Below are positions 2-27,384 of a stretch of 27,384 nucleotides of DNA, one piece after another; position 1 is the first letter of the stretch, and every line of letters starts with the position of its first letter. Origin of the DNA: a virus; the IMG/VR virus record IMGVR_UViG_3300034375_004573, positions 1 through 27,384 of that record; one strand, written 5' to 3'. The position numbers and the translations under genes were made by a program. The notes under the pieces were generated by a model, which searched no databases, was not told the origin of the DNA, and saw only the letters and a list, made by a program, of their open reading frames with translations.

Positions 2-94
2 CACTGGAAGTATTTAAGTTGGGCTAGAGAACACATTGACAAGTTATATAATGAACTTGATATGGAGTTACCAGAGAAACCAGATCTTGATTGA
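2..94 (+). CDS. 3' end of an unknown protein (partial)
   Basis: An open frame runs from the left edge to a TGA at 92-94 and gives the last 30 residues of a protein, ending in PEKPDLD. The fragment is charged and rich in Glu, Asp and Lys, with no recognisable domain. Its last 22 nt recur at 2223-2244, just after the next gene, where the same EKPDLD-stop tail can be read again. This suggests that the amidoligase-like gene in between was inserted or duplicated here. No function can be assigned from such a short fragment. Confidence 0.6.
   Translation, partial: HWKYLSWAREHIDKLYNELDMELPEKPDLD
72..93 (+). repeat. Direct repeat, copy 1
   Basis: A 22-nt block encoding the tail EKPDLD of the upstream gene. 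It matches 2223-2244 at 20 of 22 positions. The two copies bracket the amidoligase/kinase-like gene almost exactly. Confidence 0.7.
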
Positions 95-102
95 AAATAT
101 AT

Positions 103-2214: not shown

Positions 2215-2222
2215 CAATTTGT

Positions 2223-2244
2223 CAGAGAAACCGGATCTTGATTA
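2223..2244 (+). repeat. Direct repeat, copy 2
   Basis: Second copy of the 22-nt block at 72-93. Read in frame it gives SEKPDLD and a stop, like the end of the gene truncated at the left edge, but no gene leads into it. Its 3' end overlaps the stop of the convergent minus-strand gene. It is probably a remnant of a duplication or insertion. Confidence 0.7.
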
Positions 2245-2829
2245 ATTTTCTTCTTCTCTCAATTCCACATCACCTTGTAGATGATTCAAACATCCCAATA
2301 AATGTTTACATAATCCCGTTTCAAATGTAGGATTTGTTACATTTGGAAGAGCGCCATTTGAAAATTCTATATCGGATGCTCCTTGAAGTTGATTTGCTTT
2401 TTCCATACGATATTTAAAATCTTTGCAATCACATGAAACTTTGCATTTCATTTGTCTTAGATCTTCACCTTTCAAAATTTGAGGCGGTATTTTCTTATTA
2501 ACAAATTGTTTAAATTTTTGTCTAACTGACTTCCACCAGATTCCCACTTTACCCATCATTGATTTTTCATCGGATTTAGCTGGTGCAAATTTAATATATC
2601 CTCTATGAGATTTTCCTTCTACAGATGGAAATGATCTAAAATCAAATTTCAAAGACACGTTGCCATCACGTAACATAACAAATTTAGGCGGAGATGTTTT
2701 AACATTCTTGGTTGTTTGTAACCTAGTTGGAAAATTTTGATCAGTCGATGATTTCAATTGATCATATGAAACCCATTCTGAAATAATTTCAGTTTCAGTT
2801 TCATTTAACAAGTCTTTTAATTTGATCAT
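2242..2829 (-). CDS. SWIM-type zinc-finger protein
   Basis: A 195-residue protein. The C-terminal third carries CDCKDF, a spacer of about 40 residues, then GLCKHLLGCL: the CxC...CxH ligand pattern of SWIM zinc fingers, which bind DNA or proteins. The N-terminus, MIKLKDLLNETETEIISE, is a short amphipathic segment like the leaders on several neighbours. It contains LNE, the kind of site cut by T4-type prohead protease. The gene is transcribed divergently from the next gene, out of a palindromic promoter at 2827-2866. It ends 27 nt from the convergent amidoligase-like gene, with no hairpin between. The SWIM call rests on the ligand spacing; what it binds cannot be told. Confidence 0.6.
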   Translation of the reverse strand: MIKLKDLLNETETEIISEWVSYDQLKSSTDQNFPTRLQTTKNVKTSPPKFVMLRDGNVSLKFDFRSFPSVEGKSHRGYIKFAPAKSDEKSMMGKVGIWWKSVRQKFKQFVNKKIPPQILKGEDLRQMKCKVSCDCKDFKYRMEKANQLQGASDIEFSNGALPNVTNPTFETGLCKHLLGCLNHLQGDVELREEEN

Positions 2830-2866
2830 GTATATAAATAGTTATTATGCTATATTTATATACATG
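2827..2866. promoter_or_regulatory. Palindromic divergent promoter and start region
   Basis: Arms 2827-2840 (CATGTATATAAATA) and 2853-2866 are perfect 14-bp reverse complements around a 12-nt centre. Each arm holds one gene's start codon (2829 on the minus strand, 2864 on the plus strand) and one TATAAATA, the T4 late-promoter octamer: 2833-2840 on the plus strand, 2860-2853 on the minus strand. The same arms also place ATATTTAT (plus) or CTATTTAT (minus) at -12 to -5 of each start codon. The two promoters therefore overlap symmetrically. Confidence 0.65.
2852..2859 (+). promoter_or_regulatory. Start-proximal box ATATTTAT
   Basis: The octamer lies at -12 to -5 relative to ATG 2864. The same octamer at the same distance precedes ATGs 4974, 8610, 12266 and 18991, and CTATTTAT precedes the minus-strand ATG at 2829. 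It is a candidate late -10 box for a leaderless transcript, or a translation-start signal. Confidence 0.6.
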
Positions 2867-3556
2867 AAATACCGTTACAAGATAGACGAATCTATTGGAC
2901 AGTTGAAATTTGACAAACTTTTGGGGAATCATAGACCTGATAGTTTGGTTAAGCGGACAAAAACGGGAAAACAAAAAAGAGTTGGAAGTCAAATAATACG
3001 ACAACGTGGAATGAAGCCTGGAATGTTTCGTAGAAAGACTGTTAGTGGAGTTTCTTTACCATCGGATGAATGGTATGAACCTATAGCGTTTGCAAAAGAC
3101 GAAGAGACAGTTCCTCATGAGGGATTTCATAACACGATGAAGATAATTGAAGATCGGTTTGGAAAAAAAGTGGCCGATGGGATAATTCAAAAATTGATTT
3201 CTTACATTCCACGAAAAACTAAAGGAGAATTGACTTATATGTTGTCTGCTGTCAGATCTTATATGACATCAACAAACAAATATGATGAAGAAATTATTAA
3301 TATAATTCACGATATATTATCCGATAAGAAATATAATATAGATGGAACCGGATCTAGTGCAAGATCACATTACATCAAATCTATAATTCAATTGAACGAT
3401 ATAGATCCATCAGACGAAGCTTCTATTTTAGAAATAATTCATTATAAAATAGCAGAATTGAAGAAAATATGGAAGGAAATGTTGAAATTCAGTAAACAGT
3501 TAGTCGTTGACAAAAAAGATATAAAACCAAAATACAGACATGAACCTATCAACTAA
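2864..3556 (+). CDS. Unknown protein with an HExxH metal-site motif
   Basis: A 230-residue basic protein, starting at ATG 2864 inside the palindromic promoter; an upstream GTG-like frame extension would cross the promoter and is not used. Residues 85-89 read HEGFH, the HExxH signature of zinc metallopeptidases, within VPHEGFHNTM. It is followed by helical sequence with several Glu and His residues that could supply a third ligand (ELTYML, EIIHY). No full protease family is recognised, so the motif could be chance. The first 60 residues are very rich in Lys and Arg (KRTKTGKQKR, GMFRRK), which suggests nucleic-acid or virion association. It overlaps the next gene by 17 nt, so the two are probably translationally coupled. 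Confidence 0.6.
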   Translation: MKYRYKIDESIGQLKFDKLLGNHRPDSLVKRTKTGKQKRVGSQIIRQRGMKPGMFRRKTVSGVSLPSDEWYEPIAFAKDEETVPHEGFHNTMKIIEDRFGKKVADGIIQKLISYIPRKTKGELTYMLSAVRSYMTSTNKYDEEIINIIHDILSDKKYNIDGTGSSARSHYIKSIIQLNDIDPSDEASILEIIHYKIAELKKIWKEMLKFSKQLVVDKKDIKPKYRHEPIN

Positions 3557-3893
3557 AAATTTACCATATCCAGCAGGTCATTCGCCGATGACCGCTAATT
3601 TACCAACGTTCGATCCAATTGATATGATGATGAGACGTAAACGTGTTCAAGACGGTGAAGAGGTTCCTGAGACGGTTCAATTTGATCCCCAAGACATAAA
3701 AGAGTTGGAAGAGTTTTGTCAGAAACATGGCATCATGGGATTTGATTTTGGTAAGATGGGGCCTAAAGCAGCACTTGCTATGTTAAAAGGTCAATTTGGA
3801 ATGGCTGATGATGTGGTATCTAACATGGAAGCATCCGGACATCGTGTGGTTGGAAAAGAATATAAACAAGACCGACAAATTTTAAACGGATAG
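3540..3893 (+). CDS. Unknown small protein
   Basis: A 117-residue soluble protein with no recognised domain. The N-terminus is Pro-rich and polar (NLPYPAGHSPMTANLPTFDP). A Met/Arg patch (DMMMRRKR) follows, then an acidic helix (DPQDIKELEEFCQKHGI) and a Gly/Met-rich segment (GFDFGKMGPKAALAMLKGQFGM). It overlaps the preceding gene by 17 nt and is followed 4 nt later by the next start, so it belongs to one operon. Its place beside candidate virion proteins suggests a structural or packaged role, but nothing in the sequence shows it. Confidence 0.6.
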   Translation: MNLSTKNLPYPAGHSPMTANLPTFDPIDMMMRRKRVQDGEEVPETVQFDPQDIKELEEFCQKHGIMGFDFGKMGPKAALAMLKGQFGMADDVVSNMEASGHRVVGKEYKQDRQILNG

Positions 3894-3897
3894 TGTT

Positions 3898-4962
3898 ATG
3901 CCAAAAGACATCATAAAGAAATTTCAAGATCAATATGGAAAAGAAGCGGGAAAGAAAGTTTATTATGCTACTGCTAATAAACAAGATCGTGATCCAGAGA
4001 CTTTTGAAAAAATTGATGAAAATTTAAGAAAACAATATGGAGTTGGCAAATACATTGGAGGTGCATTGTATTTTCACAAGACGTATGTTGATGATATAGT
4101 TCCACCCGATGTATTATCCAAAGCATTATCATTAATTGGAGATGACATCAAAACATACAATATAATCAAATATTCCCCAAAAGAAAACAAAATTAGTTTT
4201 TTACAGAGTTCCGACTTTGATTCAGCAAGAGAACCCCTTGTTGATTACGGTTACTCAGTGGATTTAAATAAAGAAAAAACAGGCCTTCGTAAAGTTGGTC
4301 AAATATATCACCACAAATGGCAATTTGTTAAACCCGATTATACTGGATTTGACTATAATGAAAGTCAAGAATGGAGCAAATTATGGTCTTCTAAATTTAA
4401 AGAAGCTGGATTAAAATTGTCAGATATTGGATGGAAACAAAAATGGGAAGATAAATTACAACAGGTTGGATTACCTTTGGATAATATGAAAGAACAATTA
4501 AAAGAAATAATAAAAGAATCGTTGGAAGAAATGATGGATGTTAAAAAAATATCAACTAGCATGAATTCAATCATCACATCGATGGAAAAGTTACCTACGG
4601 TTGACAAAGTATTGACCTCACACAGTAAATTAGACGGTTGGCATGGTGAAATTTTGGGTGCTGATGGAACTGTATATGAAATTGATATGAAACCAAAATC
4701 AAAACCTGTAAATGAGTCTGTTTTTGAGGAAGAGTATGTAAATGGATTTATAAGTGAAGATTACTCCGCTATAAATGGGTATGCTTATCGTTTAAAAGAA
4801 TGTGGCGTTGATTCTAAGATGGGATATAACAACGGCAAACATAATTTAATGATACGTCGGGATCATTTAGGAAATGCTATTGATGTTTTAAAGAACTCTG
4901 CTGATGAATTAGGTTATACGGTAGCAGAAAGACTACAAAGAAGATATTTTGCAAAAATGTAA
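3898..4962 (+). CDS. Multi-segment unknown phage protein
   Basis: A 354-residue protein with at least three parts. Residues 1-36 form a basic helix (FQDQYGKEAGKKVYYATANK) of a type I have seen at the head of other phage proteins. Residues about 48-155 form a compact domain with GKYIGGALYFHK, IIKYSPKENKISFLQSSDFD and GQIYHHKWQFV; I recognise the style from uncharacterised phage proteins but not the function. Residues 197-215 (starting MKEQLKEIIKESLEE) look just like the N-terminal leader of neighbouring proteins, as if a second protein had been fused on. ATG 4486 could be an internal start. The last 70 residues hold a mixed alpha/beta unit (KHNLMIRRDHLGNAIDVL). No enzymatic motif is clear. Confidence 0.6.
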   Translation: MPKDIIKKFQDQYGKEAGKKVYYATANKQDRDPETFEKIDENLRKQYGVGKYIGGALYFHKTYVDDIVPPDVLSKALSLIGDDIKTYNIIKYSPKENKISFLQSSDFDSAREPLVDYGYSVDLNKEKTGLRKVGQIYHHKWQFVKPDYTGFDYNESQEWSKLWSSKFKEAGLKLSDIGWKQKWEDKLQQVGLPLDNMKEQLKEIIKESLEEMMDVKKISTSMNSIITSMEKLPTVDKVLTSHSKLDGWHGEILGADGTVYEIDMKPKSKPVNESVFEEEYVNGFISEDYSAINGYAYRLKECGVDSKMGYNNGKHNLMIRRDHLGNAIDVLKNSADELGYTVAERLQRRYFAKM

Positions 4963-4969
4963 TATTTAT
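4962..4969 (+). promoter_or_regulatory. Start-proximal box ATATTTAT
   Basis: At -12 to -5 of ATG 4974, overlapping the last base of the previous stop codon. It has the same sequence and spacing as the boxes before 2864, 8610, 12266 and 18991. Confidence 0.6.
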
Positions 4970-4973
4970 TAAT

Positions 4974-5495
4974 ATGAAAAAATCAGACTTAAAAAAAATA
5001 ATTAACGAAGAGTTACGTATACAAAGAAAACGTTTATTTGAATCACAAGAACAACCTCAACCACAGATAACAGATCCTAATGCTCCTGTTGGTTTAAATC
5101 CAAAGAAAGCACAAGGAATTATTGCTGGTGCTATTAAGACTTTAATTAATTCCGGTGCTTTAACTGGAGTTGATCAAACTGTAGTGGATAGTTTGACTGC
5201 TGATTTGATTAAGAATTTAGACATTTCGGTTAAAGCTAAAACTTCTGAAATCGAGGATGATAAAGAGGAAGCTGATTCTGTTGATTTGGATGATGAAATT
5301 CCACATAATCGTGAAAGCGATGAATTAGATGATCAAAATCAATACGACAAACAGTTGAAAGCAACCACAAGTGATGCAAAAGAGGAAGAACCTGAAGAGG
5401 GTGGTGAAGAAGAAGCTCCTGTTGATGACATGGGCGGTGAAGATGACATGGGCGGATTGTTTGAGGTTAAAGACCTAAAGAAAATTTTCAAGTAA
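4974..5495 (+). CDS. Acidic protein with an amphipathic N-terminal leader
   Basis: A 173-residue protein in three parts. A basic leader, MKKSDLKKIINEEL, runs into KRKR-like charge. A helical core at about residues 40-85 (KKAQGIIAGAIKTLINSGAL) follows. The C-terminal half is strongly acidic and low-complexity, with runs of Glu, Asp and Gly, ending in a basic tail (EVKDLKKIFK). T4 prohead core and internal proteins are often acidic with a short N-terminal targeting peptide, so a scaffold or packaged head protein is possible; this is inference only. It has its own start-proximal box and is separated from the next gene by 63 nt that contain a weak imperfect hairpin and a TATATA tract. Confidence 0.6.
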   Translation: MKKSDLKKIINEELRIQRKRLFESQEQPQPQITDPNAPVGLNPKKAQGIIAGAIKTLINSGALTGVDQTVVDSLTADLIKNLDISVKAKTSEIEDDKEEADSVDLDDEIPHNRESDELDDQNQYDKQLKATTSDAKEEEPEEGGEEEAPVDDMGGEDDMGGLFEVKDLKKIFK

Positions 5496-5558
5496 TCGGA
5501 TAAAAAAATATTCGGCTACTATATATACACAGTTACAAATTAATACAAAAGTTTAGTT

Positions 5559-6452
5559 ATGGATAATATACCTATTAAAAAGATGGGCGCTGATGGCATC
5601 AATCCAAATTTGGATTTGCCAGAAGAGGTCAAAGCAGCATTACAAAACGACATTGATAATGCACAGGCAACAGCTCCAGCTGCTCCTGTTCAACATGATT
5701 TTCCAACGGAAGTCATTGAGTTGCCAAGTGAAGGTCACTTTTATGATCCAAGTTCTCCGCTGTCAAATGGTAAACTTGAGTTGAAGTATATGACTGCTAA
5801 AGAGGAAGACATCTTAACGTCACAAAATTTGATTAAGAAGGGTGTTGTATTAGATAAGTTGTTAGAAAGTCTTATCGTTACTCCTGGCGTTACGCCTGAT
5901 GATATATTAGTAGGTGATAGAAATGCTGTATTTGTGGCGGCTAGGATATTAGCATATGGTTCTAAATATGAAGCGAAAGTTGTTTGCCCAAAATGTGGTG
6001 AAGAAAATGATGTTTCTATTGAATTGACTAAACTTACAAACAAAGAGTTTGATTTTTCTGGGTTTACTAAAGGTGTAAATGAATTTGAGTTTGAACTTCC
6101 AATTTCTCGTAAAGTCGTAAGATATAAACTATTAAAAGGTAAAGACGAGAAAAATATTGAAGAAGAGTTAAAAGCTCTATCTAAATTAAATAAGAATGGC
6201 CCTTCTCATGAAGTAACAACACGTTTAAAACACGTAATCGTTAGCGTTGACGGTGACGATAAACGTGGAATTGTTAATGCTTTTGTAGATAATATGCCTT
6301 CACAAGATGCTAGAGAACTTCGTAAACACATTAAAGAACATTCTCCCGACTTTGACATGACGTTTGATTTTACTTGTGAACATTGTGATCATGAAGGGAG
6401 AATACAGATGCCTATGGGAATTAATTTCTTCTGGCCGGATGCAGAACTTTAA
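5559..6452 (+). CDS. Baseplate hub protein, T4 gp26-like
   Basis: A 297-residue protein of the T4_baseplate (gp26/gp51) family. After a variable N-terminal 50 residues comes the family signature ELPSEGHFYD (54-63), with KYMTAKEEDIL and LIKKG...LDKLLESLIV. A zinc-ribbon pair follows: CPKC (143-146) and CEHC (273-276). In T4 the paralogues gp26 and gp51 act in baseplate hub assembly. A second paralogue lies at 7368, beyond an inserted endonuclease gene. This copy lacks the C-terminal extension seen in the second, which is why it is called the gp26-like one. The start has no Shine-Dalgarno sequence. A strong terminator follows 12 nt after the stop. Confidence 0.8.
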   Translation: MDNIPIKKMGADGINPNLDLPEEVKAALQNDIDNAQATAPAAPVQHDFPTEVIELPSEGHFYDPSSPLSNGKLELKYMTAKEEDILTSQNLIKKGVVLDKLLESLIVTPGVTPDDILVGDRNAVFVAARILAYGSKYEAKVVCPKCGEENDVSIELTKLTNKEFDFSGFTKGVNEFEFELPISRKVVRYKLLKGKDEKNIEEELKALSKLNKNGPSHEVTTRLKHVIVSVDGDDKRGIVNAFVDNMPSQDARELRKHIKEHSPDFDMTFDFTCEHCDHEGRIQMPMGINFFWPDAEL

Positions 6453-6464
6453 ATAATTCACTTG

Positions 6465-6496
6465 AGATGCAAAACGTTGAGTTTTGCATCTTTTTT
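6465..6496 (+). terminator. Rho-independent terminator after the gp26-like gene
   Basis: A perfect 11-bp stem (6465-6475 with 6481-6491), a 5-nt loop GTTGA and a run of T to 6496. It would limit read-through into the homing endonuclease and gp51-like genes. Confidence 0.9.
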
Positions 6497-6522
6497 AATG
6501 AGATTCAGTCCAAAAAAACGAA

Positions 6523-7371
6523 ATGAATAAAAATTGTAAAAACTGTGGTAATTTATTAAATAAACGACAAAAGATGTTTTGTTGTAGGAAATGTAAAGCT
6601 GAATATGAAAAAACTATTGGAAAAAAAGAAATAGTAGATAAAATCAATTCTACATTTAAGAAAAAGTATGGAATGACTCCAATTGAAAGAAAAAATGAAG
6701 TTCTGTTAGAAGCGCATGGAACAATTCACGCTTTACAAATAGAATCATCGAACCGAAAAATGAAAAACACGATGAAGGATAGGTATGGATGTGAACAAGC
6801 GTTAAAAAATAAAAAATTATTAGATAAGAAAAACAAAACATGTGAACAGATATATGGATCACAAAATGTTTTTAATAATGAAGATGTTAGAAAAAAAGCA
6901 AAAGAAACGATATTCAAAAAATACGGAACTGAATATGTTTCACAAAATGACGACATCAAACGTAAAGTGAAGAATACTATGTTTGATCGTTATGGAGTTG
7001 AATGTGCTTTTGAGTTGCCAAATGCTAAATCCCAACGAATATCAAAATTACAACAAACAATATTTGAAAGTGTAAAAAATATACACAGTGATGCTTTATT
7101 AGAACATAGATTGAATGACATCGGAAGATCGGTTGATATTTACATACCATCAAAAAATATAGTAATTGAAGTTAATGGTGATTATTACCATATGAATCCA
7201 TCCAAATATTCCCCTAATGATTTTAATAAACGATATAAAATGACAGCTAAAGAAATATGGGAACGTGAAAAAAACAGGTTACATTTAATATCAGAGCATT
7301 TAAGTTGTAGTGTAATAGTCATATGGGAATCGGATTGGAAAAATGACAAAAACATAATGAATTATTTATGA
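6523..7371 (+). CDS. Free-standing Vsr-like homing endonuclease
   Basis: A 282-residue protein. A zinc-binding N-terminus (CKNCG at 5-9, then CCRKC at 20-24) is followed by about six degenerate repeats of roughly 25 residues, each around a (K/R)(Y/H)G(x)n unit (KKYGMT, EAHGTI, DRYGCE, QIYGSQ, KKYGTE, DRYGVE). These are probably DNA-reading modules. The C-terminal 90 residues hold the nuclease core: VDIYIP, IVIEVNGDYYH, WEREKNR and VIWESDW. This is the pattern of the EDxHD/Vsr-like homing endonucleases known from phage introns and fractured genes. It sits between two paralogous baseplate genes. Its TGA overlaps the next ATG (ATGA). It shares the catalytic core with the endonuclease inside the helicase gene at 25632. 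Confidence 0.85.
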   Translation: MNKNCKNCGNLLNKRQKMFCCRKCKAEYEKTIGKKEIVDKINSTFKKKYGMTPIERKNEVLLEAHGTIHALQIESSNRKMKNTMKDRYGCEQALKNKKLLDKKNKTCEQIYGSQNVFNNEDVRKKAKETIFKKYGTEYVSQNDDIKRKVKNTMFDRYGVECAFELPNAKSQRISKLQQTIFESVKNIHSDALLEHRLNDIGRSVDIYIPSKNIVIEVNGDYYHMNPSKYSPNDFNKRYKMTAKEIWEREKNRLHLISEHLSCSVIVIWESDWKNDKNIMNYL

Positions 7372-8252
7372 AATTATCACATAAGACAATATCATTACCT
7401 AGTGAGGGGTTTTTTTACGACAACGAATTGAGTTGTGGCAAAATACAAATATATCCATTTACAGCACACGAAGAAGATATATTATCTGAAAATTCGTCGA
7501 ATGATTATGAATTGATTGACCAAATATTAAAATCAATGATAGTAAATGATGTTAATATCGACGATTTATTGGCGGTAGATGTTGACGCTATATTATTAGC
7601 TCAACGAATAATATCATACGGCACGTCATATGATGTTAAAATAACATGTCCACATTGTTCAGATGAAAATGATTATAGTTTAGATTTGAAAAAAATAACA
7701 TCCGTAGATAAAATATACAATTTTAGTAATATAATACAGTTTGAAAATTATTCAATTGAAGTTGTTCCAGAAACGTGGGAAATGCGAAAAAAATGTAAAT
7801 CTAAATCGGATACATTAAAGAATATTATAAAGTCGGTAACTAAACACAATTCGATTGACGATTTTGTGGATAATCGCTTTTTATCCAGAGATGCTAGAGA
7901 ATTTAGGAAAAAATATAAATCGATTATGCCAGAACTGAATTTTTCTTTGTTTACGTGTTCTTGTAAAGCTTGTGACAAACCAATGCCAATTAACTTAAAA
8001 ATAAATAGATCATTTTTTGGTCTGACGCCGAATTATAAGATAACTCTTCATAAAGAGATATTTAATTTGGCATATTTCTCAGAAGGAGCGTTTAATCAAG
8101 ATATTGTTTATAGACTCCCCGTTTATCTTCGTAGATTTTATTTAAATGAATTAAGAACTACTAAGGAAAAAGAAAAGGAGCAATCACAGGAAGGATTTTC
8201 TCCAAATGAGAAATCCGAAGGTGTTCCACGGGGACCTTTTGGGAAAAAATAA
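7368..8252 (+). CDS. Baseplate hub assembly protein, T4 gp51-like
   Basis: A 294-residue paralogue of the protein at 5559: SLPSEGFFYD (9-18), FTAHEEDIL, LLAQRIISYG and a zinc pair CPHC (94-97) with CSCKAC (197-202). Unlike that protein it has a C-terminal extension, YKITLHKEIFNLAYF then IVYRLPVYLRRFYLNEL (223-262), which is typical of T4 gp51-type hub assembly factors. It ends in a polar Lys/Glu/Gly tail. The start codon overlaps the stop of the homing endonuclease, so its translation now depends on ribosomes leaving that gene. The endonuclease gene was evidently inserted directly at this junction. Confidence 0.75.
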   Translation: MKLSHKTISLPSEGFFYDNELSCGKIQIYPFTAHEEDILSENSSNDYELIDQILKSMIVNDVNIDDLLAVDVDAILLAQRIISYGTSYDVKITCPHCSDENDYSLDLKKITSVDKIYNFSNIIQFENYSIEVVPETWEMRKKCKSKSDTLKNIIKSVTKHNSIDDFVDNRFLSRDAREFRKKYKSIMPELNFSLFTCSCKACDKPMPINLKINRSFFGLTPNYKITLHKEIFNLAYFSEGAFNQDIVYRLPVYLRRFYLNELRTTKEKEKEQSQEGFSPNEKSEGVPRGPFGKK

Positions 8253-8260
8253 AAAAAGTA

Positions 8261-8289
8261 TTGACATTTTATAAAATCAATATTATGAT
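8261..8289 (+). promoter_or_regulatory. Near-consensus sigma70 promoter
   Basis: TTGACA (8261-8266), a 17-nt spacer, then TATGAT (8284-8289). The -10 box ends 6 nt before ATG 8296, so the transcript should start at or next to the start codon. Confidence 0.8.
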
Positions 8290-8295
8290 ATTATC

Positions 8296-8535
8296 ATGTT
8301 TACATTAATTTTTAGTATATTAAGCGTGATTGCTGGTTTTTTAGGAATGGCATTATCGTTTTCAGCAGATGTTTCGGTCAATATGACGTGGTATACATTT
8401 CCACTAGCATTGATACTCCAAATTTTATTTGGATGGCGTGGTGGATATTTTTATTCAGGAATGTTTGTATTGACTGCTATTTTAGATATGAACGCTTTTC
8501 TCTTTTTATACGGAAAGGTTGATATTGTATGGTAA
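8296..8535 (+). CDS. Small membrane protein, moron-like
   Basis: A 79-residue very hydrophobic protein. A first membrane segment runs from about residue 3 to 23 (IFSILSVIAGFLGMALSF). A second is near 31-47 (WYTFPLALILQILFGW) and a third near 52-73 (YFYSGMFVLTAILDMNAFLFLY). There are few charged residues and no signal-peptidase site. It lies alone between a strong sigma70-type promoter and a strong terminator, in the middle of late tail genes. That is the usual make-up of a moron. Functions of such proteins include superinfection exclusion and lysis control; neither can be shown here. A holin is another option, but no lysin lies nearby. Confidence 0.65.
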   Translation: MFTLIFSILSVIAGFLGMALSFSADVSVNMTWYTFPLALILQILFGWRGGYFYSGMFVLTAILDMNAFLFLYGKVDIVW

Positions 8536-8554
8536 TTTAAATGATTTGAAAGAT

Positions 8555-8588
8555 AAAAACCGTAGGATGTAATTTCTACGGTTTTTTT
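8555..8588 (+). terminator. Rho-independent terminator after the membrane protein
   Basis: An 11-bp perfect stem (8555-8565 with 8576-8586), a 10-nt loop, and a T run to 8588. It closes the one-gene unit and isolates it from the tail genes. Confidence 0.9.
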
Positions 8589-8597
8589 GTGCATCCG

Positions 8598-8605
8598 ATA
8601 TTTAT
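8598..8605 (+). promoter_or_regulatory. Start-proximal box ATATTTAT
   Basis: At -12 to -5 of ATG 8610, just after the terminator at 8555-8588. The next operon therefore needs a new promoter at this point, and no sigma70 -35 box is apparent; this supports the box being a promoter. Confidence 0.65.
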
Positions 8606-8609
8606 ACAT

Positions 8610-9230
8610 ATGAAAAAGTCGGAATTGAAAATTTTAATAAAAGAATCATTGAACGAAGGTGGTTTTTTAGATTCTATAATGACATTGGTTAATCCCGCAG
8701 GAGCAGCCAAGTCACTAACATCGGCTTCGGTGAAATCTCCAAAATATCAGAAAGCAATATCGGATTTAATAGATTTTTACATGGATCGTATATTGTCAAC
8801 CGACAATATAAAATCAAAAACAAACATACAACTTGTCAATATGATATTAAAACGGTTTTATGCGACAGTCAGTGACGCACTACGTGAAAAATATAAATTA
8901 GATACGTTTGAATTATTTAAATCACGATTTAATAAAATATACAACATAAAGTCGTATGAGTTGGGAGATATGTTTTTTGAAAAACGAAATGGAAAACAAA
9001 TTTCAATAGGACAAAAAATCAAAGAACTTGAACAAGCAATTTCAATCAACAATAAAACGATTGAAGATAAACGCAATAGCGATCCTAGCAAGGCTAAGGA
9101 GACTGAACTTAAAAATCAAAAAAATATAAACAATTACAATAAATTAAAATCACATTTTGAAAAAACGATTCAGGAAGATTCAAATAGATTTAAAGAAGAC
9201 TTATTGCGATTCTTAAAAACAGGTGAATAA
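8610..9230 (+). CDS. Unknown tail-operon protein with leader
   Basis: A 206-residue mostly helical, basic protein. It opens with MKKSELKILIKESLNEGG, nearly the same leader as the protein at 4974. LNE followed by Gly matches the (L/I)xE-G/A/S cleavage rule of T4 prohead protease. The centre and C-terminal half (IGQKIKELEQAISINN, LKSHFEKTIQ) look like coiled coil. ATG 8610 is preferred over the upstream ATG 8589 because of the start-proximal box and the leader. Its stop overlaps the tape-measure start by one base (TAATG), so the two are coupled. A tape-measure chaperone or hub factor is possible from position, but there is no family match. Confidence 0.6.
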   Translation: MKKSELKILIKESLNEGGFLDSIMTLVNPAGAAKSLTSASVKSPKYQKAISDLIDFYMDRILSTDNIKSKTNIQLVNMILKRFYATVSDALREKYKLDTFELFKSRFNKIYNIKSYELGDMFFEKRNGKQISIGQKIKELEQAISINNKTIEDKRNSDPSKAKETELKNQKNINNYNKLKSHFEKTIQEDSNRFKEDLLRFLKTGE

Positions 9231-17564: not shown

Positions 17565-17593
17565 TTGACTTTTACTGAAAAGTGTATTATATT
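17565..17593 (+). promoter_or_regulatory. Promoter of the polymerase-like gene
   Basis: TTGACT (17565-17570), a 17-nt spacer, then TATATT (17588-17593), 7 nt before GTG 17601. The -10 region reads TATATTTG, which also fits the Bacteroidota TAnnTTTG element. Confidence 0.65.
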
Positions 17594-17600
17594 TGCTGTC

Positions 17601-18968
17601 GTGAGGTATATTGAAGACAGTTTAGGAATACAAGAATTAAGCACCGCCTTGAAAAATAAGGATGTGTTTATGTATTGCATTCCTACGACTACCTACAAAC
17701 ATCCCTGTTGCGATAGTTTATCTTTATTATTTATTTTAGATATACAAGAGCGTGAAACCTTTGCGGTTATTTTTAATCATATAGATTCACAGTTTAATGT
17801 AAATTTGTCTGATATAATTCCAGTTCTTAATTTAACCAGAAGCCGTTTTGTCGTAGACAAAAAGAGCTTTAAGCAATATATTGATATCAGCGACCTGCTT
17901 GACGTTAAGTTTTTAGCGCATGCTATTAATAAAGATTTTAGCATTAATCCAACTTCAGTTCATACATTTTACAAGTATCAGTTTCCTAAATGTAATACAG
18001 TGAATCGGATCGTTCCGATCAATAAACACTATGAAACATTTGAAAAACTATACAGTAATGCTTTTGAAATTTTAAAAACTGAACATAATAAGTTAAAATT
18101 AGACGCTTATATCAATTCTAATAATATTTTGACTGATACATTATACCAAATAGAGAAAAATGGTATATGCGTCAATCCAGGCGACTTTATCAAGTCATTC
18201 AAAGAAGACTCTGTAAAGTTATTAGACGGAAACTTAATTAGATCACAATATAATTTATTTACATCTACTGGAAGACCATCGAATAAGTTTGGTGGAATAA
18301 ATTTTGCTGCTTTAAATAAAAAAGATGACAGTAGAAAATGTTTTGTAAGTAGATTTGGAACGAATGGAAAATTGTTTGATTTTGATTTTTCCGCTTTTCA
18401 TCCTCATTTAATTTCTAATTTAGTAAATTATGATTTAGAATTCGGCACAAACATCTATGAATATCTTGGTAAACATTATTTAAGTAAAGATAACTTAACT
18501 GAGTTGGAATTAGCTCATGCTAAGACTCTCACGTTCCGCCAGTTGTATGGAAACGTCGAACCTAAATACAAGTATATACCTTACTTTAAAAAGTGGATGC
18601 AATACATTGAACAACGTTGGAGCTTCTTTTTGGAAAATGGGTATGTTGAAACTCCGATATATAGTAGGCAAATCACGTTGGATCATATTGGTGATGATGT
18701 AAACCCAAGTAAACTTAGTAATTATATTCTACAAGCATATGAAACTGAAGTTGGTTTAACTACCGTATCCAGAATATTAAATTTACTAAAAAACAAGAAA
18801 AGTAAAGTTATACTTTATACATACGATAGTATTCTAATTGATTTTCATAAAGACGATAGCGTTGATTGTTTACATGAAATCAAGAATGCAATGGAGAACA
18901 ACAAAAAATTTCCAGTAAAAATTAAAGCCGGTGATAATTATAAAGAAATGTTCAATGTAAACATTTAA
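17601..18968 (+). CDS. Divergent family A DNA polymerase-like protein
   Basis: A 455-residue protein, short for a Klenow-type polymerase. The polymerase motifs can be seen: TSTGRPSNKFGGINFAALNK (template contact), motif A FDFDFSAFHPH with candidate metal Asp 262, motif B K308-x3-F312-x3-Y316 (AKTLTFRQLYG) and motif C YTYDSILIDF with Asp 409. The usual motif-C His-Asp-Glu reads Tyr-Asp-Ser, and the Arg before motif B is missing. The N-terminal 170 residues correspond to the place of a 3'-5' exonuclease but show no DEDD residues. GTG 17601 is chosen because the promoter ends 7 nt before it; a TTG further upstream lies within the -35 box. T4 itself uses a family B enzyme, so this may be a repair polymerase or the replicase. 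Confidence 0.7.
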   Translation: MRYIEDSLGIQELSTALKNKDVFMYCIPTTTYKHPCCDSLSLLFILDIQERETFAVIFNHIDSQFNVNLSDIIPVLNLTRSRFVVDKKSFKQYIDISDLLDVKFLAHAINKDFSINPTSVHTFYKYQFPKCNTVNRIVPINKHYETFEKLYSNAFEILKTEHNKLKLDAYINSNNILTDTLYQIEKNGICVNPGDFIKSFKEDSVKLLDGNLIRSQYNLFTSTGRPSNKFGGINFAALNKKDDSRKCFVSRFGTNGKLFDFDFSAFHPHLISNLVNYDLEFGTNIYEYLGKHYLSKDNLTELELAHAKTLTFRQLYGNVEPKYKYIPYFKKWMQYIEQRWSFFLENGYVETPIYSRQITLDHIGDDVNPSKLSNYILQAYETEVGLTTVSRILNLLKNKKSKVILYTYDSILIDFHKDDSVDCLHEIKNAMENNKKFPVKIKAGDNYKEMFNVNI

Positions 18969-21351: not shown

Positions 21352-22539
21352 ATGGCTAAAAAAACTGCTAAAAAAACAACCTCAACTAAAAAGATTGAGG
21401 TAGAAGTCGAAGGAAATACCGACTCCATCATTGCCGACATTGCTGGCATGATCAATAAAGCTAACAAAGAGGGTGGAAATGTTGCTTTTGTAATGGGAAA
21501 TGACAATCCTGATGATCCGACAAAAATTGTTGACTGGGTTCCCAGTGGAAATGATCAATTAGATTTAATAATGTGTAATCGACCTGACGCTGGTTATCCG
21601 GTCGGTCGGATTACGGAAATTACAGGATTAGAACATTCCGGTAAAACATTATTATCTATGCACGCTCTCGCTGAGACACAAAGAAAAGATGGTATTGCTG
21701 TGTTTATTGATACTGAATCATCATTAGATCATAATTTTGTTAGAGCGATTGGTGTTGACTTGGATAAATTATTATATATTTCATGTGATCACGTTGAAGA
21801 AATATTTGAACACATGGAAACTATAATTCAGAAAGTTAGATTATCTAATAAAGATAAGTTAGTGACTATTGTTGTGGATTCTGTAGCCGCTGCTTCTTGT
21901 AAAGCTGAACAGGAGTCTGATTTTGATCAAACTGGATTTGCAACTCAAAAAGCTATAATTATAAGTAAGGCTCTTCGTAAGATTACTCAATTAATAGCTA
22001 GACAACGTGTAGCATTGATTTTCACCAATCAGTTACGTCTTAACTTGGGTGCTGTATACGGAGATAAATATACAACATCTGGCGGAAAGGCATTAGGATT
22101 TCATGCTAGTTTACGATTGAGATTATCTAAGGCTGGTCAAATTTTGGATAAACCTAAGAAAAACGGTGGTCGTGTAATTGGCATTAAAACTATATGTAAG
22201 ATGATAAAAAACCGACTGGGACCTCCTGATCGAGATCATACGTTTAATCTATTTTTTAATCGTGGCATTGACAATTATGGTGATTGGATAGAAACGCTTA
22301 AAGATAAAAAAATCATAAAAGGGACTAGAACTCCTTATACATATACGGATACAAATGGTCAAGAAATTCTATTACATAAAGACAAGTTCACGGATTTGAT
22401 GAAATCCGATACAGAACTTCGTGACGAACTGTATAAACATTTATGTGACATTCATATAATGAAATATACATTTCAAGAAGAATGTGCTAGTGATGATATA
22501 TTAGTCGTTGAAGATGACGACGATGATTTAGAAGATTAA
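21352..22539 (+). CDS. uvsX: RecA-like recombinase, UvsX-like
   Basis: A 395-residue RecA/Rad51-family ATPase. Walker A is GLEHSGKT (92-99). AVFIDTESSLD (116-126) holds a candidate catalytic glutamate. Walker B is VTIVVDSVAA (171-180), and the loop-2 region follows with FTNQLRLNLGAVYGDKYTTS and GGKALGFHASLRLRL. It lacks the RecA N-terminal domain, as T4 UvsX does. The first 20 residues are Lys/Thr-rich and the last 20 are an acidic Asp/Glu tail (VVEDDDDDLED) that may contact partners. It pairs ssDNA with duplex in recombination-dependent replication. It follows the gp32 terminator by 26 nt, so it depends on read-through or on an unrecognised promoter. Confidence 0.85.
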   Translation: MAKKTAKKTTSTKKIEVEVEGNTDSIIADIAGMINKANKEGGNVAFVMGNDNPDDPTKIVDWVPSGNDQLDLIMCNRPDAGYPVGRITEITGLEHSGKTLLSMHALAETQRKDGIAVFIDTESSLDHNFVRAIGVDLDKLLYISCDHVEEIFEHMETIIQKVRLSNKDKLVTIVVDSVAAASCKAEQESDFDQTGFATQKAIIISKALRKITQLIARQRVALIFTNQLRLNLGAVYGDKYTTSGGKALGFHASLRLRLSKAGQILDKPKKNGGRVIGIKTICKMIKNRLGPPDRDHTFNLFFNRGIDNYGDWIETLKDKKIIKGTRTPYTYTDTNGQEILLHKDKFTDLMKSDTELRDELYKHLCDIHIMKYTFQEECASDDILVVEDDDDDLED

Positions 22540-24764: not shown

Positions 24765-25595
24765 ATGTCTAATAACAACGAGCGAGACACGTTAACAAAA
24801 TTTGGTAGTTCATTTCAAAGTAAATGTATTGCCAGTATATTCACAGATAAAGAGTTCCTTACGCAAGTGATGGATATTGTTCATTTGGATTTCTTTGAAA
24901 ATTCCGCACATAAGTGGATTTTGAATGAGATCATTGAATATTTCAAACAATATACTGAATTGCCAACGCTTGAAGTATTCAAGCACAAGATGAAAGACAT
25001 CGACAATAAGGTGTTATATGAAAGCATTGTAAATCAGTTAAGAGCGATCACAAATTCAACAACTTCTTCTGATTTGGTTTATATCAAAGAACAATTTTTG
25101 GAATTTTGCAAAAATCAAAAATTAAAATGTGCTATCATAGAAAGTGCTGATTTGCTTCAAAGTGGTGAATATGAACAAATCAAACATGTTGTGGATGAAG
25201 CTTTAAAGGCTGGAATGGAACGTGATGATGGACATGACTATTTAAACGAAATTGATGAACGTTTAGTTGATGATGCTCGTGATACGGTAAAGACAAATTG
25301 GAAAGCCATTGATGATTTAATGGATGGTGGATTGGGCCCTGGAGAGTTAGGAGTATTTTGTGCTAGTGCGGGTGCGGGAAAATGTATAGGCCCTAATACC
25401 GAAATCGACCTTCAGTATGAAGAACTTGGAATTGAGATACAAGGTAATACCGGAAATCCTTATGTATTGTGGATTGATCCGTTTAAAGAATATGATGTAT
25501 CTGGAATAGTAGATGGCGTTACTTCGTGTGTTGGTTGGCGAATATACAATGTTTTATGGGAACTTGACAATATTAGAATTAACTCCCAAACATAA
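24765..25595 (+). CDS. 41: Replicative helicase N-terminal part with intein N-half (gp41-like)
   Basis: A 276-residue ORF. Residues 1-206 are the N-extein: the helical N-terminal domain and linker of a DnaB/gp41-type helicase (DFFENSAHKWILNEIIEYF, ELPTLEVFKHKM), then NWKAIDDLMDGGLGPGELG and a Walker A that stops at CASAGAGK (199-206). The Ser that should complete GKS is missing; it is found at 26950, after the second half. Residues 207-276 are the intein N-half. The protein cannot bind ATP as it stands, and the C-terminal helicase motifs are in the ORF at 26542. Gene 41 unwinds DNA ahead of the fork as a hexamer. The clean stop, rather than a frameshift, and the intact junction chemistry argue for a fractured gene with trans-splicing and against a pseudogene. 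Confidence 0.85.
   Translation: MSNNNERDTLTKFGSSFQSKCIASIFTDKEFLTQVMDIVHLDFFENSAHKWILNEIIEYFKQYTELPTLEVFKHKMKDIDNKVLYESIVNQLRAITNSTTSSDLVYIKEQFLEFCKNQKLKCAIIESADLLQSGEYEQIKHVVDEALKAGMERDDGHDYLNEIDERLVDDARDTVKTNWKAIDDLMDGGLGPGELGVFCASAGAGKCIGPNTEIDLQYEELGIEIQGNTGNPYVLWIDPFKEYDVSGIVDGVTSCVGWRIYNVLWELDNIRINSQT
25383..25592 (+). other. Split intein, N-terminal half
   Basis: 70 residues starting at Cys directly after the Walker A lysine: CIGPNTEIDL is a good block A (Cys1, then PNT with the conserved Thr). No block B TxxH is found here; it lies in the other half. After block A the sequence is not like any intein region I know. The split site, between blocks A and B, resembles the rare atypically split class such as AceL-TerL. 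Confidence 0.8.
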
Positions 25596-25631
25596 AACCA
25601 ATAAAAATTATGTTTGATAATATATATTGAC

Positions 25632-26570
25632 ATGGAATTATTAAAATGTAAAATCTGTGGAATAGAACGTCGTAGTTTAGTAACTCATTTGACTAAAGTT
25701 CATAAAATAACTGGAAAACAATATAAGGAATTGTATGGTGATTGTAAATTAATATTGGTATCCGATGAAACTAAATTGAAGCTTAGTAAGTCTAATAAAC
25801 GATGGTGTTCTTCTGAGGAAAATAGAAAGAAATTATCCGAGCGTGCCAAAAACGGAGGAAGTATATTCACTGTTAATTATTGGATTAAACGTGGATATTC
25901 ATTGGAAGATGCAAAATGTAAAATTTCTGAAATACAGATTGAGAACGCGAAAAAATCAACTGACTCATTTGATAAATCAAGAAGTTGTTTCTGCGTCGAT
26001 TATTGGGTTAATAAGGGATTTTCTATAGAAGAATCAAAAACGGAAGTTTCTAAATTACAAAAAGAACTAACAAAACGATCGTCGAAATTTAAAGGAAAAA
26101 TTAGAACAGACGAATCAAAGATGAAAATATCAAAATCCATGACAGAACATATTAATTCAGTTGGTGCTAGCGAATGGTCTTCTCATTTTGGTGATTTCAA
26201 TGGTTCTTCTATTTTAGAAGACTCTGTATTTGACTTTGTTAATGGGAAGTTTCCTGGTGTCAAACGACATGTTGATATTTCACATTATGTAGTGGATATA
26301 TTAATAGATAATATAATAATTGAGGTTAATGGTGATTTGTGGCATGCAAATCCGATTAAGTATTTAGAAAACGACATTATAAATGAGTCTATATTGAACA
26401 TTACCGCTGGAGAACGATGGGAACGTGAAAAAAATAGAACTAATATATTAGAGTCGCTTGGTTATATTGTATATGTTATATGGGAACATGATTGGAAAAA
26501 TAATCGTAAAAATGAAGAAAATAAAGTAATTAAATTTTTATATGAAAATAATAGTAAAAACTGTAAATAA
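25632..26570 (+). CDS. Vsr-like homing endonuclease in the fractured helicase gene
   Basis: A 312-residue protein from ATG 25632; a TTG at 25614 would add 6 residues. Residues 5-35 are a zinc finger: CKIC, then HLTKVH and the MucR/ROS-like sequence ITGKQYKELYG. Two repeats follow, YWIKRGYSLEDAK...SEIQ and YWVNKGFSIEESK...SKLQ, likely DNA-binding modules. The nuclease core is at the end: VVDILI, IIIEVNGDLWH, WEREKNR and VIWEHDW, closely like the endonuclease at 6523. The gene lies between the two intein halves, as in the fractured-gene arrangement known from marine metagenomes (EDxHD family). It would spread the insert by cutting intein-free alleles. Its 3' end overlaps the second helicase ORF by 29 nt, in another frame. 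Confidence 0.85.
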   Translation: MELLKCKICGIERRSLVTHLTKVHKITGKQYKELYGDCKLILVSDETKLKLSKSNKRWCSSEENRKKLSERAKNGGSIFTVNYWIKRGYSLEDAKCKISEIQIENAKKSTDSFDKSRSCFCVDYWVNKGFSIEESKTEVSKLQKELTKRSSKFKGKIRTDESKMKISKSMTEHINSVGASEWSSHFGDFNGSSILEDSVFDFVNGKFPGVKRHVDISHYVVDILIDNIIIEVNGDLWHANPIKYLENDIINESILNITAGERWEREKNRTNILESLGYIVYVIWEHDWKNNRKNEENKVIKFLYENNSKNCK

Positions 26571-26949
26571 AAAAGTAAAAATAAAAGATATATTTGATGG
26601 GGTTGGCATTCCTAATGAGGAACATGCTTCAAAAGCGCCACCAATAAACTTACGGGTAAAGACTCCATATGGTTATAAACGTATAGCAAATATGTTCAGA
26701 ACTGAGCGTCAGAAAACCGTCACTACTTACTTCGGAAACAACAAAACTTTAAAAACGTCAGATAACCATAGGATAAAATCAAATGGCGATTGGGTATATG
26801 TTAAAGATTTGCGAGTTGGTCAAAAAGTTGAAACATTAAGCGACAACACTAAAGTAATAAAGAAAATAACAGGAAGAGAAGAAATTTTATATGATATTAG
26901 TGTAGAAGATGTTCATTGTTATTATTCAAATGGAATATTGAGTCATAAT
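26542..26949 (+). other. Split intein, C-terminal half
   Basis: 136 residues. KIKDIFDG and INLRVKTPYGYKRIANMF give the strands expected just after block A. Block B is TSDNH (72-76). GDWVYVKDLRVGQKV is the following beta unit. Block F is ILYDISVEDVHCYYS and block G is NGILSHN, with the penultimate His and terminal Asn, followed by Ser as +1 residue. All splicing residues are present. Confidence 0.85.
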
Positions 26950-27384
26950 TCTTGGTGTTTAAACAAGGTTGGAGTTGAAGCGTTAAAGCAAGGAAAAAAC
27001 GTGGTTCACTTCACAATGGAACTTCAACAAAAATATGTTGGTAGACGATATGATTGTTGTTTTACTGGAGTTGACTTTCAAAACATCGTAAGTCACAAAG
27101 AACAAGTATATCAAGAATTGAAAAATATAAATTCGTGGTTAAAAATAAAATACTTTCCGATCAAAACTGTATCAGCATTATCTTTAAAAAATTACATTGA
27201 ACGTATTCAGATGTTGAGTGGCGAAAAGGTAGATTTGATGATTGTGGATTATGCTGATATTTTGAAACCTGTTGCTGCTGAACGTAACAGCAATTCATAT
27301 AGTGAAGCTGGAGGAATTTATGAAGAATTACGTGGGGTTGCTGGAGAGTTACAAATTCCATGTTGGACAGCGTCACAAACGAAT
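26542..27384 (+). CDS. 41: Intein C-half and helicase C-terminal part (partial)
   Basis: An open frame of 281 codons with no stop before the right edge. An in-frame TAA at 26527 and the next ATG only at 26692 support ATG 26542, inside the 3' end of the endonuclease gene. Residues 1-136 are the intein C-half and end in SHN. Ser 137 starts the C-extein and completes the Walker A (AGAGK from the first half plus S). The C-extein holds the gp41/DnaB motifs: KNVVHFTMELQ, Walker B VDLMIVDYADIL and the arginine/glutamine-switch-like ELQIPCWTASQTN. Reconstructed, the N-extein (206 residues) plus the visible 145 residues make a continuous helicase. The rest lies beyond the window. Confidence 0.85.
   Translation, partial: MKIIVKTVNKKVKIKDIFDGVGIPNEEHASKAPPINLRVKTPYGYKRIANMFRTERQKTVTTYFGNNKTLKTSDNHRIKSNGDWVYVKDLRVGQKVETLSDNTKVIKKITGREEILYDISVEDVHCYYSNGILSHNSWCLNKVGVEALKQGKNVVHFTMELQQKYVGRRYDCCFTGVDFQNIVSHKEQVYQELKNINSWLKIKYFPIKTVSALSLKNYIERIQMLSGEKVDLMIVDYADILKPVAAERNSNSYSEAGGIYEELRGVAGELQIPCWTASQTN

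Follow-up and report, generated by a model that had tools for sequence, protein, structure and literature searches.

How does a phage come to have a replicative helicase whose gene is broken in the middle of the Walker A motif, and how can such a helicase be active? The question is raised by the right end of an IMG/VR virus fragment (record IMGVR_UViG_3300034375_004573), all 27,384 bases of which were analysed and are called the window below; the fragment carries T4-like genes (PF12322 baseplate proteins and a RecA-family protein). Here, a gp41/DnaB-type helicase gene is interrupted in Walker A, at GAGK|S: an open reading frame (ORF) for the N-terminal part of the helicase, which ends in an N-terminal intein fragment (IntN), is followed by an ORF for a Vsr-like endonuclease and then by an ORF that starts with the C-terminal intein fragment (IntC) and continues into the rest of the helicase. 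The most plausible interpretation, to which we assign a probability of about 0.87, is that a mobile cassette of the fractured-gene kind occupies the P-loop of a phage replicative helicase, which is rebuilt by trans-splicing.

All features of the locus are on the plus strand. The N-terminal ORF (24765-25595 in the ORF list, with the stop codon at 25593-25595) encodes the N-extein, helicase residues 1-206 (24765..25382), which is alignable to intein-less homologues as far as the Walker A lysine of ...ASAGAGK. Cys1 of the intein is codon 207 (25383-25385), immediately after this lysine, and 70 intein codons, Cys1 included, precede the stop. This IntN (25383..25592), delineated by a 10-locus alignment, purifying selection and models of relatives, opens with C-I-G-P-N-T-E-I-D... 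and consists of Cys1 and block A (CIGPNTEIDLQY) followed by a conserved insert subdomain (approximately residues 15-70; 25425..25592) with strands, an NVLWELDN segment and a tail. A spacer of 36 nucleotides (25596..25631, from the ORF positions) leads to the ATG of the free-standing endonuclease gene (25632..26570; 312 residues, IIEVNGDLWH ... VIWEHDW), the 3' end of which is overlapped by 29 nucleotides by the C-terminal ORF, running from the ATG at 26542 to the window end. The latter ORF encodes the 136-residue IntC (26542..26949), with block B (TSDNH) at 26755-26769 and blocks F and G (LYDISVEDVHCYYSNGILSHN) at 26887-26949, and the C-extein SWCLNKVG... (26950..27384; Ser+1 at 26950), which is cut by the window end; in contig L005 (relatives are designated by such locus numbers), where the locus is identical, the ORF extends from the ATG at 5001 to the stop at 6191, that is, 136 + 260 residues. 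The original prediction, made from the letters of the window and its ORFs, had described a helicase ORF that stops 70 codons after Cys1 of an intein inserted between Lys and Ser of Walker A, then a Vsr-like endonuclease gene and a second ORF with the remainder of the intein and the helicase, with block A in the first half and blocks B, F and G in the second; this anatomy is borne out by the ORFs, the intein-less homologues and the profile matches.

Both halves match the DnaB-like helicase family phrog_19 in profile searches (E-values of 1.8e-27 for the N half and 9.5e-24 for the C half). The C half also contains matches above the respective cut-offs to DnaB_C (6.6e-9), PT-HINT (9e-10) and intein_Cterm (TIGR01443), and IntC, delimited in an 11-locus alignment, is connected by phmmer and hmmsearch to Cat, gp41-1 and VidaL. 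Thus, the hidden Markov model search proposed in the original prediction as a check on both halves agrees with it for the C half, which matches intein profiles, and yielded no profile match for the IntN tail. Endonucleases of the EDxHD/Vsr-like family are expected in fractured gene arrangements. The endonuclease encoded here matches phrog_22677 (4.5e-13), and relatives have homologues of it at the corresponding position; it is a candidate EDxHD enzyme by a weak vsr match (0.0019) and a motif read by eye, with no EDxHD-named profile among its matches. The locus combines an enzyme gene with a split intein in two ORFs and a free-standing endonuclease between them, which is the fractured arrangement.

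Scans of viral contigs with the C-terminal ORF, an IntN alignment, an IntC alignment and a second IntN alignment detected 55, 21, 29 and 28 loci, respectively, with heavy overlap. Duplicate contigs were merged by hand and near-copies remain (L010/L011/L012/L014 and L102/L104) among the 26 helicase loci with this intein that were counted, the window included. In 22 of these, the intein is split and accompanied by an endonuclease gene (the window, identical to L005-L007, and L008, L009, L064, L066, L067, L084, L091, L010, L011, L012, L014, L073, L080, L015, L016, L019, L102, L103, L104, L107 and L137; in L066 and L137 the contig stops within the endonuclease gene, and the N part of L102's contig was found in L126), so that the layout is shared with 21 loci besides the window, at IntC identities down to about 45%. 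Two loci, L087 and L141, have a split intein without an endonuclease, and another two, L017 (= L018, two contigs) and L101, encode the whole intein in a single ORF. In the intein-less alleles L021-L048, which come from the scan with the C-terminal ORF, K is joined directly to S, and the insertion can therefore be placed exactly at K|S. Empty, split with endonuclease, split without endonuclease and unbroken alleles are all found at this one site.

The C part begins with an ATG at the homologous place in all 22 split loci where it was seen, and IntN is 60-74 residues long in the split loci except for L141 (45 residues). The latter is a minimal split (479-1042) in which IntN is followed by a stop codon, GGA, an ATG 12 nucleotides past the stop and IntC, with TAAGGAAATTTTTAAATG separating the two ORFs. 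In L087, the sequence right after the N stop and the last endonuclease codons, as in L084, are retained but the gene is gone; because both borders of the endonuclease region are kept, this allele must descend from an endonuclease-bearing one. On the midpoint-rooted IntC tree, the unbroken L017 and L101 fall into different supported sets (98/97 and 97/96, respectively), both of which include split members; the branch of L017 is long, and its placement was flagged as unsure by the tool. These separate positions imply two or more switches between the split and unbroken states, in either direction on a midpoint root.

Because the break parts Lys and Ser of Walker A, an active helicase should require ligation of the halves. 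The claim of the original prediction that the P-loop is restored only in this way fits the sequence evidence, with association and splicing of the halves as its predicted steps. A second intact helicase gene, the finding that would have told against that claim, did not come up in a search with PF03796, which is not fully sensitive: the 297-kb relative G001 and a 43-kb contig identical to the window locus each contain one DnaB-type match, which is the fractured gene, and among 10 records, 9 were matched, none more than once. It could be argued that the cassette is decayed, with the helicase broken and dead and the phage using another one, considering that the record of the window, a fragment of 27 kb, leaves room for another helicase and that the search could miss one. 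This explanation is very unlikely in view of the pN/pS (ratio of nonsynonymous to synonymous divergence) of 0.00-0.40 obtained for the helicase halves in pairwise comparisons, the intact ORFs in the loci of relatives and the single DnaB_C match in 297 kb. Alternatively, the halves could form a non-covalent, two-chain helicase without splicing, each of them containing large parts of the enzyme (the N-terminal domain and most of the RecA-like core, respectively). The location of the break within Walker A, between Lys and Ser, makes such a complex hard to credit, as does the retention of Cys1, block B, the terminal His-Asn and Ser/Thr+1, which splicing would maintain. Indeed, the features of a class 1 intein are all present (Cys1, T/S-x-x-H in block B, C-terminal His-Asn and Ser, Thr or Cys at +1), and S73, H76, H135 and N136 of IntC are invariant in the alignment of 11 loci.

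The approximately 55 residues after block A, for which the original prediction saw no clear intein match, turned out to be conserved intein sequence. Across loci, IntN is 39-58% identical to that of the window over 42-67 residues; G3, P4, N5, T6, I8, Y12, G16, I17, W30 and P33 are invariant in the 10-locus alignment, and C1, G3, T6, Y12, W30 and P33 in 8 more diverse loci. In L017 and L101, the tail continues in frame into the IntC part within one ORF. Among the 12 pairs compared, 11 include the tail, and in 10 of these its dN/dS (nonsynonymous to synonymous substitution rate ratio) is 0.00-0.37, the top value being that of L084/L087, with few changes; in the eleventh pair, L073/L012, synonymous sites are saturated and pN/pS is 0.16. 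Judging from these comparisons, the tail is under purifying selection. The N-tail queries in viral contigs gave 21 confirmed stretches of 119 and 28 of 30, and every one of those with the context read is in a helicase gene. In genome contigs, none of 177 stretches matching the pattern of the subdomain was confirmed, and a tblastn search of 50,697 phage records with the L017 intein (E 0.01) found 18 records, all matched from query residue 77 on; the subdomain is therefore found in none of those isolates.

Structure models were built with AlphaFold2 for the unbroken L017 and L101 inteins from alignments of the fetched loci, which included 16 of 20 IntN fragments, truncated behind GWQV or a few residues further on, and 20 IntC fragments minus their first residues; the row sets were picked by whether landmark residues lined up, and L014, L126, L137 and L141 are in none of them. 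The L101 model has a predicted local distance difference test score (pLDDT) of 95.2 and a predicted template modelling score (pTM) of 0.87, and the L017 model 93.2 and 0.85. Both models contain a strand at residues 7-20 followed by strands at 26-31, 36-39 and 42-45, to which L017 adds a helix at 46-63 that corresponds to the NVLWELDN segment; next come the opening strand of IntC and the first Hint helix. The least confident block of L017 (residues 61-70, mean 65) is the linker where the split alleles stop, host the endonuclease and restart. As modelled, the L101 intein is a Hint fold: VidaL is its best match in Foldseek (E 2.4e-7; TM score of 0.80 by target) and has a Z of 18.3 over 137 residues in VIA, where inteins and Hint domains among the best 50 matches listed show Z of 15-19.5 with 120-144 of 188 residues aligned. 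The IntN tail is predicted to be a strand subdomain inserted after block A. The notion that this tail is a functionless read-through at the point of endonuclease insertion, compatible as it is with the lack of profile matches and with a PDB profile (A5) that has no positions for the tail, is barely tenable; it was rejected given the conservation of the tail, its continuity in the unbroken alleles, a dN/dS well below 1 and its confident modelling as part of the fold in relatives.

These models also locate the break. The first Hint helix (H64-70 in L101) is the K-I-K-x-x-x-L-F element, which is sited on IntC; the break accordingly lies at S1, before this helix, in the notation of split positions defined in PMC13014065. 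It separates the block-A strand from the first Hint helix and leaves block B on IntC, as expected of S1; natural atypical IntN fragments are 15-37 residues long according to the same paper, compared with 70 in the window and 45-74 among the split loci. Hence, of the original suggestion of a split near block A of the AceL-TerL type, the proximity to block A stands, and the type is S1, as in VidaL and PolB16, rather than S2. The S2 split was ruled out by the position of the first Hint helix on IntC, and the canonical split at the endonuclease position, with block B on IntN and an IntC of 35-50 residues, by the presence of block B on the 136-residue IntC. By eye, KKVTVQEL of VidaL resembles KKVKIKDIF at the start of IntC; given that HMMER pairs VidaL from residue 24, without gaps, with positions slightly further into IntC, the register of the first IntC strand rests on the models. 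Joining of the halves at the RNA level by a group I or II intron carrying the endonuclease gene, as phage endonuclease genes often reside in introns, has a negligible chance of being correct and was rejected, with no Rfam intron match in the window up to E 1, no space for an intron core in the 36-nucleotide spacer and the 29-nucleotide overlap, only 12 nucleotides from N stop to C start in L141, and intein blocks A, B, F and G on either side of the break.

Under the trans-splicing interpretation, the helicase halves would be made as separate proteins; IntN, with its block-A strand and its own small strand subdomain, would dock on IntC and complete a class 1 Hint fold, and the intein would excise itself and join the Walker A Lys and Ser, yielding a 466-residue helicase. 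The endonuclease, encoded in the split linker, would cut intein-less helicase genes of co-infecting phages near the P-loop codons and so spread the cassette; it could then be lost while the split persists. Sequence divergence is consistent with such mobility. Among L010, L011 and L012, synonymous divergence (pS) is 0.70-0.81 in the helicase flanks compared with 0.22-0.41 in IntN, endonuclease and IntC, with the change at or near the cassette borders in 30-codon windows; for L084/L087, the respective values are 0.74 and 0.32. In circular shifts of the labels, the observed contrast of these four positive pairs was reached in 18/977, 1/977, 35/977 and 41/652 cases. That synonymous divergence is lower in the cassette than in the flanks for 4 of the 6 pairs can be read as a homing signature. 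Furthermore, the +1 serine codon (26950-26952) is TCN in 23 of 23 occupied alleles with serine (the 24th, L101, has Thr), compared with AGY in 11 of 17 intein-less alleles (identical contexts merged from 29); the Fisher p of 5e-6 is uncorrected for kinship, and several of the 17 are near-copies. With AGY at +1, the target of the endonuclease may be disrupted; alternatively, TCN may be brought in by co-conversion. Phages may escape homing through AGY instead of TCN. Elsewhere in the window, two PF12322 T4 baseplate genes flank a second endonuclease gene (6523-7371; DUF7487, phrog_3339), a candidate for freestanding homing; its product and the helicase-locus endonuclease both match phrog_22677.

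Several observations weigh against this interpretation. The pS of the cassette is uneven, ranging from 0.05 to 0.84 across 30-codon windows of L010, L011 and L012; two of the six pairs, L084/L091 (173/792 shifts) and L067/L087 (372/652), show no contrast; and the four positive pairs are not independent, as three share members. Some of the profile matches fall below the cut-offs: Intein_splicing in the C half (2.2e-7; 31.2 bits against 35.8), MTES_1575 in the endonuclease (4.6e-9; 36.7 bits against 38.2, 1.5 bits short) and, far below, vsr (TIGR00632). In L080, L102, L104 and L107, N or G takes the place of the block-F His. The limited sensitivity of the PF03796 search is evident from G002, which holds a three-piece helicase and in which the search gave nothing, so that a second helicase could be missed. 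The models represent unbroken relatives and not the two chains of the window together. Finally, association, splicing, cleavage by the endonuclease and dependence of replication on splicing are steps that we infer.

Split or unbroken inteins in replication genes are also apparent in several of the relatives and in phage isolates. In L091 (IMGVR_UViG_3300013132_002633; 23-8825), UvsX/RecA and the helicase each appear to be encoded in three ORFs, apparently with four split inteins in adjacent replication genes within about 9 kb. The IntN ends of its UvsX/RecA, as read from the ORFs, are CVTEDTIIKVIIE (13 residues) and CVDPYTTKIKIRYKI (15 residues), and both look S1-like by eye. The three pieces match RecA (0.0039, 2.3e-26 and 7.7e-13), and matches to intein profiles back the first RecA intein as well as the two in the helicase; the second RecA C piece has no such match and was assigned by its junction, ...NHN|T, and by its counterpart in L101, which is unbroken. 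If functional, the 13-residue IntN would be below the 15 residues reported as the shortest. In L101 (1064-8616), uvsX is split with a 16-residue IntN and an endonuclease gene at 1841-2833, and its C-terminal ORF contains an unbroken intein at a site that is split in L091; in the helicase of L101, the first intein is unbroken and the second one is split, and the helicase of L016 likewise has a second break. The helicase of Vibrio phage vB_VmeM-32 (KU160494, L001; 2053-5125), a Straboviridae isolate, is apparently fractured as well, with an N-terminal ORF at 2053-2748, an endonuclease gene at 2854-3990 and a C-terminal frame at 3959-5125; its intein parts were identified by eye as a 27-residue IntN after LMAGVN and an IntC ending in ...HHN|TGKS. 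The helicase parts match DnaB and DnaB_C, and the record annotates neither as a helicase. The uvsX gene of this phage also appears to be fractured, with a canonical split and, according to the record, a SegG-like endonuclease. Vibrio phage YC (MH375644, L002; 2699-5119) has an unbroken helicase ORF, annotated only as primase-helicase, with a large P-loop intein that by eye contains an apparent internal endonuclease domain. In the window itself, UvsX (21352-22539) is intact, and by eye the intein sites of L091 (GLEH|SGKT and GDKY|TTSGGKAL) are empty. A 467-residue ORF (17565-18968) shows weak similarity to family A DNA polymerases (PF00476 5e-6, below the cut-off; phrog_17 2e-10), which is odd beside T4-like replication genes.

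If this interpretation is correct, these phages should have no replicative helicase until two proteins meet. The alleles bear on the origin of split inteins, on how they persist once the endonuclease, presumably the agent of their spread, is gone, and perhaps on re-fusion; being alternatives that related phages carry at a single codon junction of a single gene, they allow each step to be rebuilt from natural sequences. For protein ligation tools, the longer, folded IntN is a new kind of starting material that falls between very short and canonical fragments.

In 2009, Dassa et al. reportedly described fractured genes in which split inteins are combined with free-standing endonucleases. With the known cases, among them the AceL NrdHF gene (PMC7891396), the present locus shares a phage gene broken by a split intein and an endonuclease gene between the halves; it differs by a break just past block A, by a 70-residue IntN and by the occurrence, at this site, of alleles that lack the endonuclease and of others that are unbroken. 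VidaL (6vgv), the top Foldseek match of the L101 model, also has an S1 split, with an IntN of 16 residues according to PMC13014065, compared with 70 here with the extra subdomain. In PolB16 OarG, the break is likewise near the N-terminal end and IntC is nearly the whole Hint domain; according to PMC10189870, its IntN has 15 residues and is called the shortest characterised, it starts with Ser1 and the host is a polymerase gene, in contrast to the 70 residues, Cys1 and the helicase gene of the window. AceL-TerL/Cat (6dsl, CatC) resembles the window intein in IntC (phmmer 8.4e-5) and in the N-proximal split, which is at S2, after helix 1, according to PMC13014065, whereas this helix is on IntC here. 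The gp41-1 intein (6qaz) has the Hint fold and a profile match (3e-8). Its host gene is also a phage helicase gene, but the intein is inserted elsewhere and is split canonically, at the endonuclease position. The fractured arrangement as such is already known; neither this intein, nor an S1 split with a long, subdomain-bearing IntN, nor a single junction with all the allele states was met in the titles and abstract beginnings of the literature matches listed, most subscription papers being outside these. It is tempting, at slightly less than even odds, to regard this intein as a distinct kind of natural split intein, S1-split, with an IntN that has its own folded docking subdomain, and present at one site in all states of the life cycle, with the split and unbroken forms converted into one another at least twice.

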